Made by a program: the position numbers and the translations under genes. Below the pieces are notes generated by a model. It did no database searches. It was given only the letters and a program-made list of their open reading frames with translations, and had not been told where the DNA came from. From positions 1 to 25,023 of IMG/VR virus record IMGVR_UViG_3300010885_058698: a DNA stretch of 25,023 nucleotides; one strand, written 5' to 3'. This document shows positions 3,041-11,588 of the stretch, in pieces; position 1 is the stretch's first letter; every line of letters starts with the position of its first letter. The stretch is from a virus.

Positions 3041-4488
3041 CTAAAGACTATAGTGTTGATCTCCAAAAATTATTTTTAGAAATGATGCAACAGAATCCTG
3101 AAAGTTATGTAAGGGTTCAAAACATTTATAATCCAGAGAACTTTGATAGAAGTCTCCGTGAAGCCGCACGTTTTATCAAAGAACATGTGGACACACATAA
3201 GATTATGCCCACTCCTGAACAGATTAAAGCAGTGGCAGGCACAGATCTGAAATCAATTCCAGATCTCGGAGAAAATCATTATGATTGGTTCATGGTTGAA
3301 TTTGAAGGATTTACTAAAAAATATGAACTAGAACGTGCAGTGCTCAAAGCCGCAGACATGATTGAAAAAGGAGACTTTGACTCCATTGAAAAGATTATTA
3401 AAGATGCAGTACAGATCAGTCTAACCAAAGACATGGGCACAGATTACTTTGCTGATCCCCGTGCTCGATTGATGAAAATTAAAAGCAACAATGGGCAAAT
3501 TAGCACAGGCTGGCCCACCATGGACAAGAGATTGTTTGGTGGTATGAACCGAGGGGAACTAAACATTTTTGCCGGTGGCTCGGGTTCAGGTAAGAGTCTG
3601 TTTATGCAAAACATTGCATTAAATTGGGTCATTGCTGGCTTGAACGGTGTGTTTTTAACGCTAGAACTCAGTGAAGAACTGTGCGCTATGCGTATTGACA
3701 GTATGGCTGCAAATGTCAGCACTAGGGAAATTTTTAAAGAACTTGACACAGTGGAATTAAAGATTGGTATGCTGGGTAAGAAGTCTGGCAGCATGAGAAT
3801 CAAATATATGCCAGCGCAGAGTAATGTGAATCAGATTCGTGCATATCTTAAAGAGCTTGAAGTGCAGACTGGCCGTAAAACAGATTTTATCATGGTAGAC
3901 TATTTGGATCTTGTTATGCCAGTCAGTGCCAAAGTCAGTCCCAACGATTTGTTTGTCAAGGACAAGTATGTTTCGGAAGAGTTACGAAATTTAGCCAAAG
4001 AATTCAGTGTATTAATGATCACTGCCAGTCAGTTAAATAGAAGTGCAGTAGAGGAGATTGAATTTGATCACAGTCATATCAGTGGCGGTATTAGTAAGAT
4101 TAATACAGCAGACAATGTATTTGGAATCTTTACATCCAGAGCTATGCGTGAACGTGGCCGCTATCAGATACAATTAATGAAAACTCGTAGCAGTAGTGGT
4201 GTGGGCATGAAAGTAGACTTAGACTATGACGTCGACACCCTGCGTATTACAGATCCGGGTGAGGAGGCACAGGGTACTCCGGGTACACTAAAACCTCAGG
4301 TTGGTAGTATTATGAATAGTATTAAAACCAGATCCACTAGTGCCGACGACTCTGACACAACTAGAAAATTTGAAAGAGCACAGGGAACTCCTGCATGGGA
4401 ACAACCTGCAGGCAGCGGAATTGGCGGTGGGGCAGCTCAAAACGTAAAGCTTAAACAAATGCTAGCTGGATTGAGGAAAGTAGAATAA
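3037..4488 (+). CDS. Replicative DNA helicase, T4 gp41/DnaB type
   Basis: The 483-residue RecA-fold helicase should form the hexamer that unwinds DNA on the lagging strand. Residues 1-130 are the helical N-terminal region. The catalytic part starts with STGWPTMDKRLFGGMNRGEL (about 156-175), the usual DnaB-family entry. Walker A is GGSGSGKS (180-187, Lys186). LTLELSEELCAMRID (208-221) carries the catalytic-Glu motif, Walker B is FIMVDYLDL (Asp288), and a SQLNR-type sensor motif follows. The C-terminal 80 residues are Gly/Ser/Thr-rich and look disordered. It overlaps the primase by four bases upstream and the radical SAM gene by one base downstream (TAATG), so all three are probably one operon. 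Confidence 0.93.
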   Translation: MTKDYSVDLQKLFLEMMQQNPESYVRVQNIYNPENFDRSLREAARFIKEHVDTHKIMPTPEQIKAVAGTDLKSIPDLGENHYDWFMVEFEGFTKKYELERAVLKAADMIEKGDFDSIEKIIKDAVQISLTKDMGTDYFADPRARLMKIKSNNGQISTGWPTMDKRLFGGMNRGELNIFAGGSGSGKSLFMQNIALNWVIAGLNGVFLTLELSEELCAMRIDSMAANVSTREIFKELDTVELKIGMLGKKSGSMRIKYMPAQSNVNQIRAYLKELEVQTGRKTDFIMVDYLDLVMPVSAKVSPNDLFVKDKYVSEELRNLAKEFSVLMITASQLNRSAVEEIEFDHSHISGGISKINTADNVFGIFTSRAMRERGRYQIQLMKTRSSSGVGMKVDLDYDVDTLRITDPGEEAQGTPGTLKPQVGSIMNSIKTRSTSADDSDTTRKFERAQGTPAWEQPAGSGIGGGAAQNVKLKQMLAGLRKVE

Positions 4489-5606
4489 TGAGTGAATTGT
4501 ACTGCCCCATGATTCACGGGGGGCTGAATATAGATTTAAAACAAAACGGCCAACTGTCTTTTAACCAATGTTGTTTAAGCACAGTAAATTTATCAATACC
4601 TTCAGACATAACAAATATTTGGAATAATGAGAAATTAATTGAAATCAGAAATCAAAATAATCAAAATGTTTGGAATAAAGATTGCTGGGAATGTGAACGA
4701 TTAGAAAATGCAGGAATGCGAAGTTTTAGACAGGCAATGATTGATAAATTTGGTATAAAGAAAAATTTATCGGGACCACAACGAATAGATTTGTTGTTTG
4801 ATCGTAGTTGTAACCTGGCATGTATGACTTGTGGGCCAAGTTCTAGTACATTGTGGCAAAAACATCTTAAAGAACATAAACTACTTTTGTCTGAATATTC
4901 TAATAAAACAACTATAGATGATATTTTTAAAACTTTAAAGTCACTGGATCTGAGTAACTTAGAACTAATACAATTTTGTGGCGGGGAAACTTTATTAGGT
5001 AATACATATTGGGACACTGCTGATTTTATAGCAAATCTTGTCCCCGATTGTGCAAATAAAATAGATATTGCATTTCAAACAAACGGAACTCAGCCAATTG
5101 ATAAAAAATATTTTAATATTATTGAAAAATTTAGACTGGTAAAATTTTTCATTAGCTTAGATTCAACGCACAATAAGTTTGAATATCTAAGATGGCCAGC
5201 CAGTTGGGATCAAGTGACAGATAACATTATGAGATTACGAGAAGAATTGCCAGTAAATGTTATGTTCTCAGTTCAAGAAGTTGTTAGTTGTTTAAATATG
5301 TATTATTATTTGGATGTGCCAAATTGGTTGAATGAACATTTTAAAACAAATAGGCTCGGGGACATTGTCGACTACTCTACACAATTAGCTATACACAAAT
5401 ATCTGGATGTTAATAACGTTACACAAGAATATATAGATGCAATAGCACATACCCCAATGAAAGATATTTTACGGGCAAATTGGAAAGAAAACCCACAAAG
5501 TATTAAAAATATGTTAGAAAAAATAAAACTATTTGATTCAATGCGAAACAAAAACTGGCAAGCTGATTTCCCTGAAGTGGCACAGTTTTATTCTAGGTAT
5601 CTTTAA
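4488..5606 (+). CDS. Radical SAM protein with N-terminal SPASM/twitch-like Cys domain
   Basis: The 372-residue enzyme has the radical SAM triad CNLACMTC (Cys108, Cys112, Cys115), which binds the [4Fe-4S] cluster that cleaves S-adenosylmethionine, and a GGE motif (165-167) for SAM binding. Before this core lies a Cys-rich segment with Cys6, Cys28-Cys29 and CWEC (66-69), separated by GGLNIDLKQNGQLSFNQCC and ITNIWNNEKLIEIR. That is the signature of a SPASM/twitch auxiliary-cluster domain, here placed N-terminally as in phage twitch-type proteins. SPASM enzymes often modify peptides, but the substrate here is unknown. The start overlaps the helicase stop by one base, so it belongs to the replication operon. 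The base use looks more AT-rich than the helicase. Confidence 0.87.
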   Translation: MSELYCPMIHGGLNIDLKQNGQLSFNQCCLSTVNLSIPSDITNIWNNEKLIEIRNQNNQNVWNKDCWECERLENAGMRSFRQAMIDKFGIKKNLSGPQRIDLLFDRSCNLACMTCGPSSSTLWQKHLKEHKLLLSEYSNKTTIDDIFKTLKSLDLSNLELIQFCGGETLLGNTYWDTADFIANLVPDCANKIDIAFQTNGTQPIDKKYFNIIEKFRLVKFFISLDSTHNKFEYLRWPASWDQVTDNIMRLREELPVNVMFSVQEVVSCLNMYYYLDVPNWLNEHFKTNRLGDIVDYSTQLAIHKYLDVNNVTQEYIDAIAHTPMKDILRANWKENPQSIKNMLEKIKLFDSMRNKNWQADFPEVAQFYSRYL

Positions 5607-5612
5607 TAAATA
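5605..5612 (+). promoter_or_regulatory. Late-promoter-like box AATAAATA
   Basis: One mismatch to TATAAATA, overlapping the stop of the radical SAM gene and 22 bases before the TTG at 5635. The same TTAATAAATATA context recurs at 12544-12555 before the fibre-type gene, which supports a real site. Confidence 0.5.
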
Positions 5613-5634: not shown

Positions 5635-5886
5635 TTGCAGAAAAAAACTCGTAGTTTATTAGAAGAACTAGATTCGTTACGGTTACACAAAGATAAAGAA
5701 AATCTTGTGGAAAGCCGTGCCAATCATGTCATTACTGGCGCTATAAATCTTATTAATTTTATTCGTGAAAATTACGATAAAGAACAGTCTGAAGAGTTAG
5801 AACGTAGATTAATCAACAGCATCAGGGCTCAGGATACAGCTAAATTTAGTCGTGGTGTTAAAAGGATTTCGAATGAAAGTAAATGA
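5635..5886 (+). CDS. Small helical conserved phage protein
   Basis: The 83-residue protein is highly charged and almost wholly helical in character: LLEELDSLRLHKDKENLVES, then ANHVITGAINLINFIRENYD and ELERRLINSIRAQDTAKFSR. I recall similar small proteins in T4-like cyanophages but no assigned function. The TTG start is chosen because TGGAG at 5622-5626 stands 8 bases before it and no ATG/GTG fits better. The 3' end overlaps the next gene by 14 bases, indicating coupling. It stands behind a late-promoter-like box and before two putative head-targeted proteins, so a virion or assembly role is possible. Confidence 0.75.
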   Translation: MQKKTRSLLEELDSLRLHKDKENLVESRANHVITGAINLINFIRENYDKEQSEELERRLINSIRAQDTAKFSRGVKRISNESK

Positions 5887-6577
5887 AATTATAACAGAAG
5901 CTGGCGTATGGCAAGGCATAAAGAATGTGGCTGGTAATGTTGCAACTGGTGCAGTTAAGGGGTTAGATTTACTTGCGGGCGGATCAGGTAATGTCGGTAC
6001 TGTAAAGCAGCGAGTACAGCGTAAATTAAATCAAACTACCAAAAATTTAGCTAGAATAAATCGAGAGTTGCCCGAACAAGCATTGGCAAATTTTGAAGTT
6101 CAAATGGGCGAACAAGGCATTGATATAAATGACCCCAGAACGTTTAATCCGCAAACAGTGAGAAATTCTTTACGTGACTTTGGATTACAATTTTTTGCAG
6201 GCGGCGAAGAAGATGCTATAAAAGCATACATTGCTCAAACTATTCAATTTGAACCTTTACCTGGCAAAATTGATAATAAAACTGTATTAAACTATTTTAA
6301 AGAGTTAACAAAAATTAGATCTAATGCGGTATTGTGGGTAGCACAAAATCAATCGTCTCAAGAAATTCAACAAACACAACAAACACAACAAACACAACAA
6401 GGTCCTGCATTGACACAGGGAGTTAGTGTAGTCAATTCTGCAGACCCATTAATTTTACGATATAAAAATACAGACTTTGCTCTTACCAGTAATGACAGAT
6501 GGGTATATCTTGGTAGTGATAAGGAAGCAAGTCCTGAAATGACACAATTTTTAAATAAACAATTAAGCAGATTATGA
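5873..6577 (+). CDS. Putative internal head protein with capsid-targeting-like leader
   Basis: The 234-residue protein begins MKVNEIITEAGVWQG. Residues 5-10 (EIITEA) resemble the T4 IPIII leader EFIAEA, with the prohead-protease pattern I-x-E before Ala10. A Gly-rich stretch (LLAGGSGNVG) and a helical segment follow, then a Gln/Thr repeat (QQTQQTQQTQQ) as linker, and a C-terminal domain with LRYKNTDFALTSNDRWVYLG. The ATG at 5873 is preferred to an upstream GTG at 5852 because AAGGA (5861-5865) sits 7 bases before it and because the leader motif then starts the protein. It overlaps the next ATG by four bases. No enzymatic family is recognised; packaging into the head is inference. Confidence 0.7.
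   Translation: MKVNEIITEAGVWQGIKNVAGNVATGAVKGLDLLAGGSGNVGTVKQRVQRKLNQTTKNLARINRELPEQALANFEVQMGEQGIDINDPRTFNPQTVRNSLRDFGLQFFAGGEEDAIKAYIAQTIQFEPLPGKIDNKTVLNYFKELTKIRSNAVLWVAQNQSSQEIQQTQQTQQTQQGPALTQGVSVVNSADPLILRYKNTDFALTSNDRWVYLGSDKEASPEMTQFLNKQLSRL
6368..6400 (+). repeat. 9-bp microsatellite (CAACAAACA, 3.7 copies)
   Basis: Perfect tandem copies in frame encode the Gln/Thr linker. The unit length is a multiple of three, so copy-number change would alter linker length without frameshift. Confidence 0.9.
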
Positions 6578-7836
6578 AACTATTTGAAATCCGCCAAACA
6601 CCGCCAAGGTGGCTAATACTAGAAGGAGCCGAAGGTAAGAATTTACATTTGGAGCACATTGAAGATCTTGTATTCAATGAGGGATACATGGGAGCTCAAC
6701 GTGCGTTAAGCTATATGGAAAGTCTTCGCCAAATGTTTGCTGAAGGCAAAGGCACCGCTACCAAACTCACCGTTAAATGGGATGGCGCCCCTGCAATTAT
6801 ATGTGGCATAGATCCTGCTGATGGCAAATTTTTTGTAGGCACAAAAAGTGTTTTCAGTAAAGATTCTAAAGCTTGTAAAACACAAAAAGACATTACAAAA
6901 TTTTACGGAGAGCAAGAAGGGCTAGCCACTAAATTATCTGTGGCATTAAAATATCTACCAAAACTAGGGATTGGTAGTGTACTGCAAGGGGACCTAATGT
7001 TTACCCCCGGTGATCTTCAAACTGGGGTTATTGACAATGAAGAAGTTTATTTTTTTACACCAAATACCATAACATACGCGGTTCCTGTGGCCAGTGAATT
7101 AGGTAATCGTATAGCAAGAGCTAAACTAGGTATAATTTTTCATACAGCATATGAAGGTGTGAGCTTACCTGAAATGTCTGCCAGATTTGGTGCAGAAGTA
7201 GCTGGGTTAAACAGAACTAACGATGTTTGGTTCGACGATGCTACTTACAAAGACTACACAGGAATAGCTAGTTTGACTCCAGAAGAAAATAGCCAAATAT
7301 CCAGAACTATCGGGCAGGCAGCTATTACACTTAGAAAAATTAACGCAAAGAAATTTGACATTATTTTGGGTAATCCTGAATTCGCAAATTACATTAAACC
7401 TTTTATCAATAATATGGTCAGAGCTGGTGAACAAGTAGGTGAACCCATAGCTTTTTTAAATAGATTTTTGGCTTTTTACAAGAGTAAGCAGGAAGGCGAA
7501 ATAGCTAAATTGCGGGGCGGTCCAGAAAGTGCCGCTGCCAAAGCCAGAATTGCTAAAATAGAACAAAATGAAAAATTTATAGAAGATAATAGTAATACTT
7601 TATTGGGAATACTGGCAATTTACAAAAGAATAATCGAACTTAAATTAATGATACTTGCAAAAATACAAAAAGTCGAAAGCATTGGTACTTTTATTAAAAC
7701 TGACAATGGTTATAAAGTAACTGCACCTGAAGGATTTGTTGCTATAGGACACGACGGCGGAGCAGTGAAACTAGTTGATAGATTAGAATTTAGCAAACAG
7801 AATTTTTCAGCAACAAAAGCTTGGAAGAAAAGCTAA
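6574..7836 (+). CDS. Nucleotidyltransferase/ligase-fold protein with capsid-targeting-like leader
   Basis: The 420-residue protein carries motifs of the covalent nucleotidyltransferase superfamily (DNA/RNA ligases, capping enzymes). Motif I is KWDGAPA (68-74), where Lys68 would take the nucleotide. GTKSVF (89-94) resembles motif III, LQGDLMFT (137-144) resembles the acidic motif IIIa, PEGFV (385-389) fits motif IV, and VKLVDR (398-403) fits motif V with Lys399. The spacing from III to IV is unusually long, and no OB-fold domain is obvious after motif V. The N-terminus MKLFEIRQTPPRWLILEGAEG contains I-L-E before Gly18, matching the prohead-protease site rule. It overlaps the preceding leader-bearing gene by four bases. 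The likely role is nucleic-acid end repair or nucleotidylation; substrate and packaging are inferred. Confidence 0.7.
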   Translation: MKLFEIRQTPPRWLILEGAEGKNLHLEHIEDLVFNEGYMGAQRALSYMESLRQMFAEGKGTATKLTVKWDGAPAIICGIDPADGKFFVGTKSVFSKDSKACKTQKDITKFYGEQEGLATKLSVALKYLPKLGIGSVLQGDLMFTPGDLQTGVIDNEEVYFFTPNTITYAVPVASELGNRIARAKLGIIFHTAYEGVSLPEMSARFGAEVAGLNRTNDVWFDDATYKDYTGIASLTPEENSQISRTIGQAAITLRKINAKKFDIILGNPEFANYIKPFINNMVRAGEQVGEPIAFLNRFLAFYKSKQEGEIAKLRGGPESAAAKARIAKIEQNEKFIEDNSNTLLGILAIYKRIIELKLMILAKIQKVESIGTFIKTDNGYKVTAPEGFVAIGHDGGAVKLVDRLEFSKQNFSATKAWKKS

Positions 7837-9819: not shown

Positions 9820-10487
9820 ATTTAAACGAACTTGCACCAAAAAAAACACAACGATTAAACCGTATAATGGAAAGTCGGTTTGGTTTTGCTATAAATTATA
9901 ACAATCTTACATATGCTAAAGCACAACGATTGAGCATTGCATTAGATGAAAATCTGAACAACATCAGAAAAAGCTACGGTGCTCATACCGCAGAAAAGAA
10001 TCCTAAATATATGGAAATGTTTATGGTTCGAGAAGGGCTAACTGCTTGGTTGGATCAGCACGAAACTCTATTAGAAGGCGAGTTGGAAACAGCAGAAGCC
10101 GTACTAGCAGCCAAAGACATGGTTGACAGCGTTCAGGACATGATCACCGATGCTAGTAAAATGATGAACGAAGAACTTCCTCCTCTACTAGATACCATCA
10201 GGGACCAAATAGGCACTGCTCAAGCAGACAGTTATAAGCAAACTGTAACAGCCGCATTGCAAGGACTAATGGATTCTCTCAATGGTGCCAGAGATGCATT
10301 GGATAACGGTGCTAGAGTACTAGCTGGAGAACAACCTGATCAAGCAATGAATATGGGTGGAGAATTGCCAGGACAATTGCCTCCGGTACTAGATGCGAGC
10401 AGCGACTTGGATGCAGAAGATGACGGATTTGCCGCAACTGATGCCGCGGCCGGCGGCCAAGAAGATCTGGGCAGAGAACGTCGTTAA
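9816..10487 (+). CDS. Putative internal head/core protein with capsid-targeting-like leader
   Basis: The 223-residue protein begins MNLNELAPKKTQRLNRIMES. Ile17-Met18-Glu19 before Ser20 matches the prohead-protease rule, so the first 19 residues may be a removable leader. Residues 60-175 are strongly helical and acidic (LLEGELETAEAVLAAKDMVD, NEELPPLLDTIRDQIG, LMDSLNGARDALDNGA), recalling scaffold or core proteins of T4-like heads. The C-terminal 50 residues are Gly/Asp/Ala/Pro-rich and probably disordered. ATGA overlap joins it to the gene before; its TAA overlaps the next ATG (TAATG). Similar proteins occur in cyanophages as I recall. Head-core function is inferred from composition and leader. 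Confidence 0.65.
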   Translation: MNLNELAPKKTQRLNRIMESRFGFAINYNNLTYAKAQRLSIALDENLNNIRKSYGAHTAEKNPKYMEMFMVREGLTAWLDQHETLLEGELETAEAVLAAKDMVDSVQDMITDASKMMNEELPPLLDTIRDQIGTAQADSYKQTVTAALQGLMDSLNGARDALDNGARVLAGEQPDQAMNMGGELPGQLPPVLDASSDLDAEDDGFAATDAAAGGQEDLGRERR

Positions 10488-10855
10488 TGAGAGCAAACGA
10501 TTTTATATTAGAGTCTGACGGTGAGGATTTCGGAAAAATCCTCACTGCCGTAAATCTATTGCATAATAAAGTTACAGATGGTGAACTTACTCAACAAATA
10601 CCCACAGGTATGGTTATTCGTTATATAAGAAACACCGGAATAACAAATTTTTCTTATGCTGATTTATTGTTAGCCAATGATAAAGAACCAGCTCTTAAAA
10701 ATTTAATCAAAAATATCAATACAGACACTATCACTTTCACGTCTGACACTACTCAAAATATAACCAATCCAGAAAAATATATCGGCGCTGCCGATAATCC
10801 AGAACAAACTGTGTCGAACATGGCCAAAAGCGCCATGAAGCGTAGACAAGACTAA
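10487..10855 (+). CDS. Small protein with capsid-targeting-like leader
   Basis: The 122-residue protein begins MRANDFILESDGEDFGKILT. Ile7-Leu8-Glu9 before Ser10 gives a short leader of the IPIII kind. The body has a helix-rich region (PTGMVIRYIRNTGITNFSYA) and a Thr-rich part (NINTDTITFTSDTTQNITNP), ending in the basic tail KSAMKRRQD. It starts on the stop of the previous leader-bearing gene, so they form a pair as at 5873/6574. A promoter for iscU begins inside its last codons. A role as a packaged head protein is inference. Confidence 0.65.
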   Translation: MRANDFILESDGEDFGKILTAVNLLHNKVTDGELTQQIPTGMVIRYIRNTGITNFSYADLLLANDKEPALKNLIKNINTDTITFTSDTTQNITNPEKYIGAADNPEQTVSNMAKSAMKRRQD

Positions 10856-10888: not shown

Positions 10889-11281
10889 ATGGCCTATTCA
10901 GAAAAGGTTGTAGATCATTACGAACATCCACGAAATGTGGGCAGCTTTGCTAAAGATGAAGAAGATATTGGCACCGGTATGGTTGGTGCACCTGCTTGCG
11001 GCGATGTAATGAAGCTACAGATAAAGGTAAACAATAAAACGGGCATTATTGAAGATGCGAGATTTAAAACGTATGGCTGCGGGTCGGCGATTGCAAGCAG
11101 TTCTCTTGTTACAGAATGGGTCAAAGGTAAAACACTTGACCAGGCAGCAAGCATTAAGAATTCTCAGATTGCAGAAGAACTCGCCCTCCCTCCGGTCAAA
11201 ATACATTGTAGCATATTGGCCGAGGATGCCATTAAAGCCGCTGTAGAAGACTACAGAAAGAAGCATGATCTCTCTCACTGA
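10889..11281 (+). CDS. iscU: Fe-S cluster scaffold protein IscU
   Basis: The 130-residue protein is full length (E. coli IscU has 128). All functional residues are present: Cys37 with Asp39 (GAPACGDVMK), Cys64 (KTYGCGSAIASSS), and His106-Cys107 (VKIHCSILAEDA). LPPVK at 100-104 is the site bound by the HscA chaperone. It should accept sulfur from a cysteine desulfurase and assemble [2Fe-2S]/[4Fe-4S] clusters. No desulfurase (IscS), HscA/HscB or ferredoxin gene lies in the window, so host partners would be needed. It has its own strong sigma70-type promoter and AGGAG ribosome site, and its end overlaps iscA by 17 bases. The intact active site argues for a working phage-borne metabolic gene. Confidence 0.95.
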   Translation: MAYSEKVVDHYEHPRNVGSFAKDEEDIGTGMVGAPACGDVMKLQIKVNNKTGIIEDARFKTYGCGSAIASSSLVTEWVKGKTLDQAASIKNSQIAEELALPPVKIHCSILAEDAIKAAVEDYRKKHDLSH

Positions 11282-11588
11282 TCGTGCGTACACCAAAGTA
11301 AAACGCCTACTGCAAGCCAAAGACTATGCTGGTATTCGCCTTGGGGTAAAAACTACCGGTTGCTCTGGGCTGGCATATGTGTTAGAATATGTACAAGAAT
11401 ACACGCCTTCGGAATCTGATATAAACTATGGCCAGCAAGACTTTGTGGTACTAGTTGATAAAAAAAATGATGTGTATCTCAAAGGCATCACAGTAGACTA
11501 TGTGCGCCAAGGTCTCAACGAAGGCTTTGAATTTCAAAATCCAAATGAACGCGATCGTTGTGGTTGTGGAAATAGCTTCCGAATTTAA
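11265..11588 (+). CDS. iscA: A-type Fe-S carrier protein (IscA/HesB family)
   Basis: The 107-residue protein has the three cluster-binding cysteines of the family: Cys33 in TTGCSGLAY, and Cys99 and Cys101 in the C-terminal CGCGNSF. Length and order match E. coli IscA (107 residues). A-type carriers take Fe-S clusters from a scaffold and hand them to target apoproteins, especially [4Fe-4S] enzymes. The ATG lies within the last codons of iscU (17-base overlap), so the two are made together. IscA, ErpA and SufA cannot be told apart by eye; the symbol follows the iscU linkage. Confidence 0.93.
   Translation: MISLTDRAYTKVKRLLQAKDYAGIRLGVKTTGCSGLAYVLEYVQEYTPSESDINYGQQDFVVLVDKKNDVYLKGITVDYVRQGLNEGFEFQNPNERDRCGCGNSFRI

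Follow-up and report, generated by a model that had tools for sequence, protein, structure and literature searches.

The locus and its gene family

The window analyzed here, a stretch of 25,023 nts of viral DNA, carries on its plus strand an operon (5635/5873-7836) that ends with an open reading frame (ORF) of 420 amino acids. The features of this operon, and a related one further downstream, are the following.

5606..5612, plus strand: ATAAATA, a T4-late-promoter-like site by its placement upstream of a gene start, heading the operon
5873..6577, plus strand: basic ORF of 234 amino acids with leader MKVNEIITEAG (a match to the leader pattern), overlapping the DUF6267 start by 4 nts
6574..7836, plus strand: DUF6267 coding sequence (PF19782, PHROG 455), 420 amino acids from an ATG start, ligase-superfamily nucleotidyltransferase-like
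6574..6624, plus strand: leader MKLFEIRQTPPRWLILE, a predicted capsid-targeting propeptide with a gp21-type site I-L-E before G18 (site conserved in homologs; disordered in the model)
10487..10855, plus strand: ORF starting MRANDFILESDGED, a second leader-like N terminus, missed by the pattern because it has Ala at the first hydrophobic position

A profile search assigns the 420-amino-acid protein over its full length to the Pfam family DUF6267 (PF19782), with an E-value of 2.3e-109 and a score of 366.6 bits (cut-off 27), and to PHROG 455 with an E-value of 2.2e-112. Both are families without an assigned function so far, and none of the papers in the collection searched names DUF6267. An NCBIfam scan of the protein gave zero matches, and so did searching PDB sequences with this one protein; repeating the PDB search with the DUF6267 profile brought up only coiled-coil and other noise.

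Using tblastn, we find DUF6267 in 467 phage records, each at 60% identity or less to the window protein. Nearly all are T4-like phages of Synechococcus or Prochlorococcus, together with Pelagibacter and Methylophilales phages, and the carriers come from oceans and lakes. A compact subfamily in cyanophages, of which gene 189 of S-SM1 is typical, has 301-324 amino acids, with a helical insert of about half the length. Matches from the bacterial and archaeal collections lie on contigs of marine MAGs or single cells, which most likely are phage sequence. The contigs L109-L124, for instance, have been assigned to bins of archaea, Planctomycetes, Chloroflexi, and further groups, and carry DUF6267 phage genes; they are probably viral sequence in marine MAGs.

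As a separate observation on the window, positions 10889-11588 and 4488-5606 hold genes that resemble iron-sulfur scaffolds (IscU-like and IscA-like on visual inspection) together with one for a radical SAM protein (PHROG 14086), near nrd genes.

Active-site motifs and predicted fold

The preliminary description of this DNA, made from its letters alone, had proposed a ligase/nucleotidyltransferase-like protein on the basis of four segments taken as motifs I, IIIa, IV, and V in the order found in covalent nucleotidyltransferases: KWDGAPA (from K68), LQGDLMFT (137-144), PEGFV (385-389), and VKLVDR (398-403). Motifs I, IV, and V stand, and they are invariant or nearly so in the family. LQGDLMFT, on the other hand, is better taken as motif III, with D140 where Glu is usual, and motif IIIa is F161-x-PNTITY168, which aligns with P-x-NRIVLAY of T4 Rnl1. 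An Ia-like K91 and an invariant H190-T-x-Y had been overlooked. The complete set is as follows.

6646..6666, plus strand: conserved HLEHIED block, where the folded part begins (H25, H28, and E30 invariant in a 66-homolog alignment)
6775..6786, plus strand: motif I KWDG, with candidate nucleophile Lys68 (K, D, and G invariant in 66 homologs and in the compact subfamily)
6841..6849, plus strand: motif Ia-like T-K91-S (K91 invariant)
6985..6993, plus strand: motif III Q138-G-D140, with Asp where ligases have Glu (Q and D invariant)
7054..7077, plus strand: motif IIIa F-x-PNTITY (P163 and Y168 invariant)
7141..7152, plus strand: H190-T-x-Y193, in the strand following motif IIIa (invariant in the alignments)
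7279..7668, plus strand: family-specific insert of six helices that takes the place of the short connection from motif IIIa to motif IV, with roughly half this length in the compact forms of cyanophages (AlphaFold2 secondary structure and alignment)
7729..7740, plus strand: motif IV E386-G-F-V (alignments), in register with motif IV of Rnl1
7768..7782, plus strand: motif V K399-L-V-D-R403 (alignments), 13 residues past E386

In an alignment of 66 diverse homologs, the invariant positions are K68, D70, G71, P73, K91, Q138, G139, D140, P163, Y168, H190, T191, Y193, E386, G387, V389, K399, and R403. A set of 51 sequences that includes the compact subfamily keeps all of them except G139, which is often Ala; the residues invariant there include K, D, and G of motif I, Q and D of motif III, E, G, and V of motif IV, and K and R of motif V. 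The family-wide forms, invariant or nearly so in 51-66 homologs, are then KxDGxP for motif I, a lysine for Ia, QxD for III, PN-x-I-x-Y for IIIa, EGxV for IV, and K-x-x-x-R for V. Out of 896 distinct ORFs other than DUF6267, the pattern KxDG...EGx[VIL]...K picks out 28, each of them a T4-type DNA ligase or Rnl1. These background ORFs (at least 200 amino acids, from the phage DNA that we fetched) included Rnl1 loci on purpose, so the informative part of the result is that there are zero non-ligase matches. Judged by sequence, the ligase-type motifs of DUF6267 exceed chance.

The spacing between the motif IV Glu and the motif V Lys is 13 residues both in DUF6267 (386-399) and in Rnl1 (227-240). 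The distance from D140 to E386 is 246 residues, close to the gap of roughly 240 residues between motifs III and IV noted in the preliminary description, with the correction that the helical insert within it covers only about residues 236-365. When motif V is examined for the K-x-K form, the second lysine is mostly Val (Val401 in the window protein), and K399 and R403 are invariant. Because the first motif V lysine is kept and the second replaced, we speak of a distant relative and not of a canonical ligase. Only 17 residues follow R403, which leaves no OB-fold domain, just as the earlier reading had it. Given Val401, the Asp in motif III, and the absent OB domain, activity could be altered or lost. 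The invariance over wide divergence of the Lys nucleophile, the Ia Lys, the motif IV Glu, and the motif V Lys points instead to catalysis.

Structure prediction and fold comparison had been proposed as a check on the motif reading. The AlphaFold2 model of the window protein (pLDDT 83.8, pTM 0.76) is mostly disordered over residues 1-23. In a viral structure library, RNA ligases are the first matches that do not belong to the family (E-value 4e-3, probability 0.95), followed by weaker ones. A PDB fold search with this full-length model gives no useful match, T4 DNA ligase ranking third but at an E-value of 2, presumably because of the helical insert. Since the full-length model was uninformative in the PDB search, a compact homolog was folded instead (pLDDT 92.7, pTM 0.87). 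Of the 50 PDB structures that match it best, 48 are RNA or DNA ligases, and none of the matches is significant by itself (best E-value 0.06, TM-scores at most 0.26). Archaeal and Naegleria RNA ligases, along with DNA ligases, rank at the top, and T4 Rnl1 is also in the list.

In a profile-profile alignment, DUF6267 and T4 Rnl1 have motifs IV-V in register. Column shuffles score as high against Rnl1 in 2 of 100 trials for the compact set and in 1 of 100 for the long set; with Rnl2, an established relative, the figure is 11 of 100. The same kind of comparison finds no match between DUF6267 and Rnl2, but the comparison of Rnl1 with Rnl2 fails too at the same depth; thus, the test has low power. 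From the invariance of the motifs, the results of the fold search, and the bias of the structural neighbors toward RNA ligases, the ligase-like assignment is well supported, and DUF6267 is very probably a divergent member of the superfamily of covalent nucleotidyltransferases that includes ligases and capping enzymes.

The leader, late-promoter-like sites, and gene neighbors

A site of the form [LIVMF]-x-E lies within 10 amino acids of the conserved HLEH block or the enzyme domain in 79 of 85 homologs from the lineage of the window phage, so that the preliminary call of a capsid-targeting-like leader on this ORF is upheld. Common starts in the lineage are MKFTEYLTEA, MKSYKQFLVEA, and similar ones. 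The protein of HTVC008M starts with MYNDLLVEDKN, in which a plausible site can be read. A strict leader pattern is found in 46% of DUF6267 starts versus 5% of other starts in the neighborhood and 0.2% of internal Met. The window protein has a longer leader, MKLFEIRQTPPRWLILE, which retains the I-L-E site but falls outside the strict pattern; the only window ORF that does fit is that at 5873..6577 (pI 8.8-9.1), for which family searches gave no match. As a check, a similar pattern run over a 49-kb stretch of T4 finds gp24 and Alt, plus two probably false matches. Cyanophage homologs of DUF6267 are without a leader. We take the leaders of the DUF6267 lineage to be of the same design as the capsid-targeting peptide of T4 IPIII. 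In that sequence, residues 4 and 7 serve targeting, and residues 8 and 10 are required for processing (PMC9026906).

ATAAATA occurs in the window at 1519, 5606, 7860, 8371, 12547, and 18063, all six on the plus strand. Five of the six sites lie at most 50 nts upstream of a gene start, and this placement is suggestive of late expression; the number of sites itself is not above chance. Across the DUF6267 loci, ATAAATA is found on the coding versus the other strand in a ratio of 346:31, as expected of T4-type late promoters, and composition or coding bias may contribute.

In relatives, DUF6267 lies downstream of gp41, with gp61 and nrd genes close by, and it adjoins or is fused to a CTP_transf_like cytidylyltransferase, T4-GC190. 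The original S-PM2 record splits the DUF6267-cytidylyltransferase fusion in two, and the record of an S-PM2 deletion mutant has one 591-amino-acid protein (L125:5992-7771 versus L128:3992-5767); since the latter reads through, the division into two genes is perhaps erroneous. The S-SM1 GC190 starts with MKKFSAFLNEA and has been found in purified virions (PMC3037559). Similarly, the cytidylyltransferase S-SZBM1_140 starts with MRFRQFIIEA and is present in purified virions, and the adjacent leaderless DUF6267 protein, SSZBM1_141, is absent from the list of 30 virion proteins of S-SZBM1 (PMC9146016). A cytidylyltransferase is also present in virions of S-CREM2 (PMC10665884), a phage absent among the matches listed in our homology search of the phage collection. 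In the published proteomes that we looked through, we found no virion report of DUF6267 itself.

Genome-wide, S-SZBM1 has three genes with clear leaders, and only one of the three products is in the virion list, so a leader is suggestive and not proof. Its genes 191 and 192 (L239:32312-33126), for small proteins with leaders MKSFKSFLSES and MKTFKQYITEA, adjoin a virion structural gene, and their products are missing from the list.

Other neighbors in related loci bear the same leader. They are HAD phosphatases (which match the polynucleotide kinase (PNK) family PHROG 415), P-loop kinases (which match PHROG 505, also PNK), and an adenylate kinase, the PNK-family matches being weak (E-values 1e-4 to 1e-7). 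S-CRM01 has an annotated protein kinase gene whose product starts with the leader MISFDQFLSE. In all, same-leader enzymes of unrelated families occur at L060:5466, L065:5188, L107:2954, L080:6588, L106:7640, L118:7628, and L236:6673. Going by their leaders, the HAD phosphatase, P-loop kinase, adenylate kinase, cytidylyltransferase, and annotated protein kinase are possibly a set of injected enzymes. The PNK-like partners are found in a minority of loci and not in the window. A reading of every P-loop partner as a PNK was rejected, since an adenylate kinase is among them and others match Zeta_toxin/AAA_33 as well.

Packaging in the head, as the preliminary description had predicted, gains from the conserved T4-type leader with its gp21-type site, the late-promoter-like start of the operon, and the same leader on neighbors of virion families; the absence of the leaderless S-SZBM1 homolog from the virion list speaks against it. 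On this evidence, DUF6267 is likely packaged in the lineage of the window phage.

Possible roles of DUF6267 and comparison with known systems

The family membership, the invariant motifs, the ligase-like fold, the leader, and the neighborhood are computed directly, and DUF6267 is probably a divergent, head-packaged member of the ligase superfamily. Beyond this, we infer leader cleavage, packaging of DUF6267, Lys68-NMP chemistry, and a nucleic-acid substrate. Made late, DUF6267 would be drawn into the prohead core by its capsid-targeting leader, and the gp21 protease would cut off the leader after I/L-x-E. The mature enzyme would be ejected into the host with the DNA. There, an NTP would give AMP (or GMP) to Lys68, and from Lys68 the nucleotide would go on to the end of a nucleic acid, most likely the 5′ end of broken RNA or DNA. 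Partners could be the similarly tagged PNK-like kinase and HAD phosphatase, encoded nearby in relatives, and the NMNAT-like cytidylyltransferase. A head-packaged, injected enzyme that forms Lys68-NMP and acts on a nucleic-acid end is our best explanation of the whole, held tentatively and with a little less than even confidence. Sealing of nucleic-acid ends is the leading predicted role, and a nucleic-acid end as the acceptor is close to an even call. The functional half of the preliminary description, which named sealing or capping of ends and nucleotidylation of a host target, thus stays a hypothesis.

The same fold and packaging could also serve a protein or small-metabolite acceptor, for AMPylation or GMPylation of a host target, or for NAD or dinucleotide chemistry with the NMNAT-like partner. 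DUF6267 has no OB or other nucleic-acid-binding domain, it is fused or adjacent to the NMNAT/cytidylyltransferase, the tagged cargo also includes the adenylate kinase and the S-CRM01 protein kinase, and T4 Alt is a precedent for an injected modifying enzyme (PMC9026906). But the structural neighbors are polynucleotide ligases, the partners of HAD and P-loop type have their matches in families of polynucleotide kinases, and we find such an acceptor rather unlikely. If packaging itself is set aside, DUF6267 could be an ordinary intracellular DNA or RNA repair enzyme, the leader being a peculiarity of the family or a mark of prohead association only. The gp21-type site in 79 of 85 lineage homologs, the late-promoter-like site at the head of the operon, and a tagged neighbor that is a virion protein make this unlikely, even with the gene beside gp41, MazG, gp61, and nrdA, cyanophage homologs without a leader, and S-SZBM1_141 missing from the virion list. 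Finally, a ligase fold that is catalytically dead might persist for a role in head structure or assembly. The change of the second motif V lysine to Val, the motif III Asp, and the loss of the OB domain would suit it, but the nucleophile Lys, the Ia Lys, the motif IV Glu, and the motif V Lys are strictly invariant over wide divergence, and we consider a dead enzyme quite improbable.

For the preferred reading, an injected enzyme acting on nucleic-acid ends, a leader like those of T4 means that DUF6267 may enter with the DNA and be active as soon as infection starts. A cargo that seals nucleic-acid ends would be a ready-made repair against early attack by host nucleases, whereas T4 must first express its repair enzymes. 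It is conceivable, although doubtful, that T4-like phages of abundant aquatic bacteria package an end-healing and sealing kit (DUF6267, PNK-like kinase, HAD phosphatase, and NMNAT-like enzyme, each leader-tagged), injected to mend cut genome ends or cleaved tRNAs before phage gene expression; because the P-loop partners are not uniformly PNKs, we hold this idea loosely. If the reading is true, it would give a function to a gene conserved in hundreds of marine phage genomes, and the ligase superfamily would gain a deviant branch. To our knowledge, few injected proteins are known for phages of Pelagibacter, methylotrophs, and cyanobacteria, and a simple sequence rule to spot injected enzymes in such phages would follow as well.

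In comparison with known systems, DUF6267 resembles T4 Rnl1 (gp63) and the RNA ligase families, including the archaeal and Naegleria ones (PDB 2c5u, 8uce, 6vt5), in the motif order I, Ia, III, IIIa, IV, V and as matches in the fold search, and it shares with Rnl1 the 13-residue spacing from the motif IV Glu to the motif V Lys. Unlike RNA ligases, it has a six-helix insert between IIIa and IV, Q-x-D as motif III, and K-x-V-x-R as motif V, with no C-terminal RNA-binding domain and with a head-targeting leader. With ATP-dependent DNA ligases (T4 gp30, human LIG1 and LIG4, archaeal), it has in common the KxDG motif I and matches to the nucleotidyltransferase fold, but neither an OB fold, nor a DNA-binding domain, nor overall sequence similarity. 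The leader, hydrophobic-x-x-aromatic-[IL]-x-E, is like that of the gp21-processed T4 proteins IPI-IPIII and Alt, and the Alt cargo is also an injected enzyme (PMC9026906); in contrast to these, the DUF6267 cargo belongs to the ligase superfamily, and its packaging is predicted from sequence. The cyanophage T4-GC190, an NMNAT-like cytidylyltransferase of the virion, has a nucleotidylyltransferase fold of the HIGH type, with no relation to the ligase fold of DUF6267, but its gene is the neighboring or fused one, and in several phages it carries the same type of leader.
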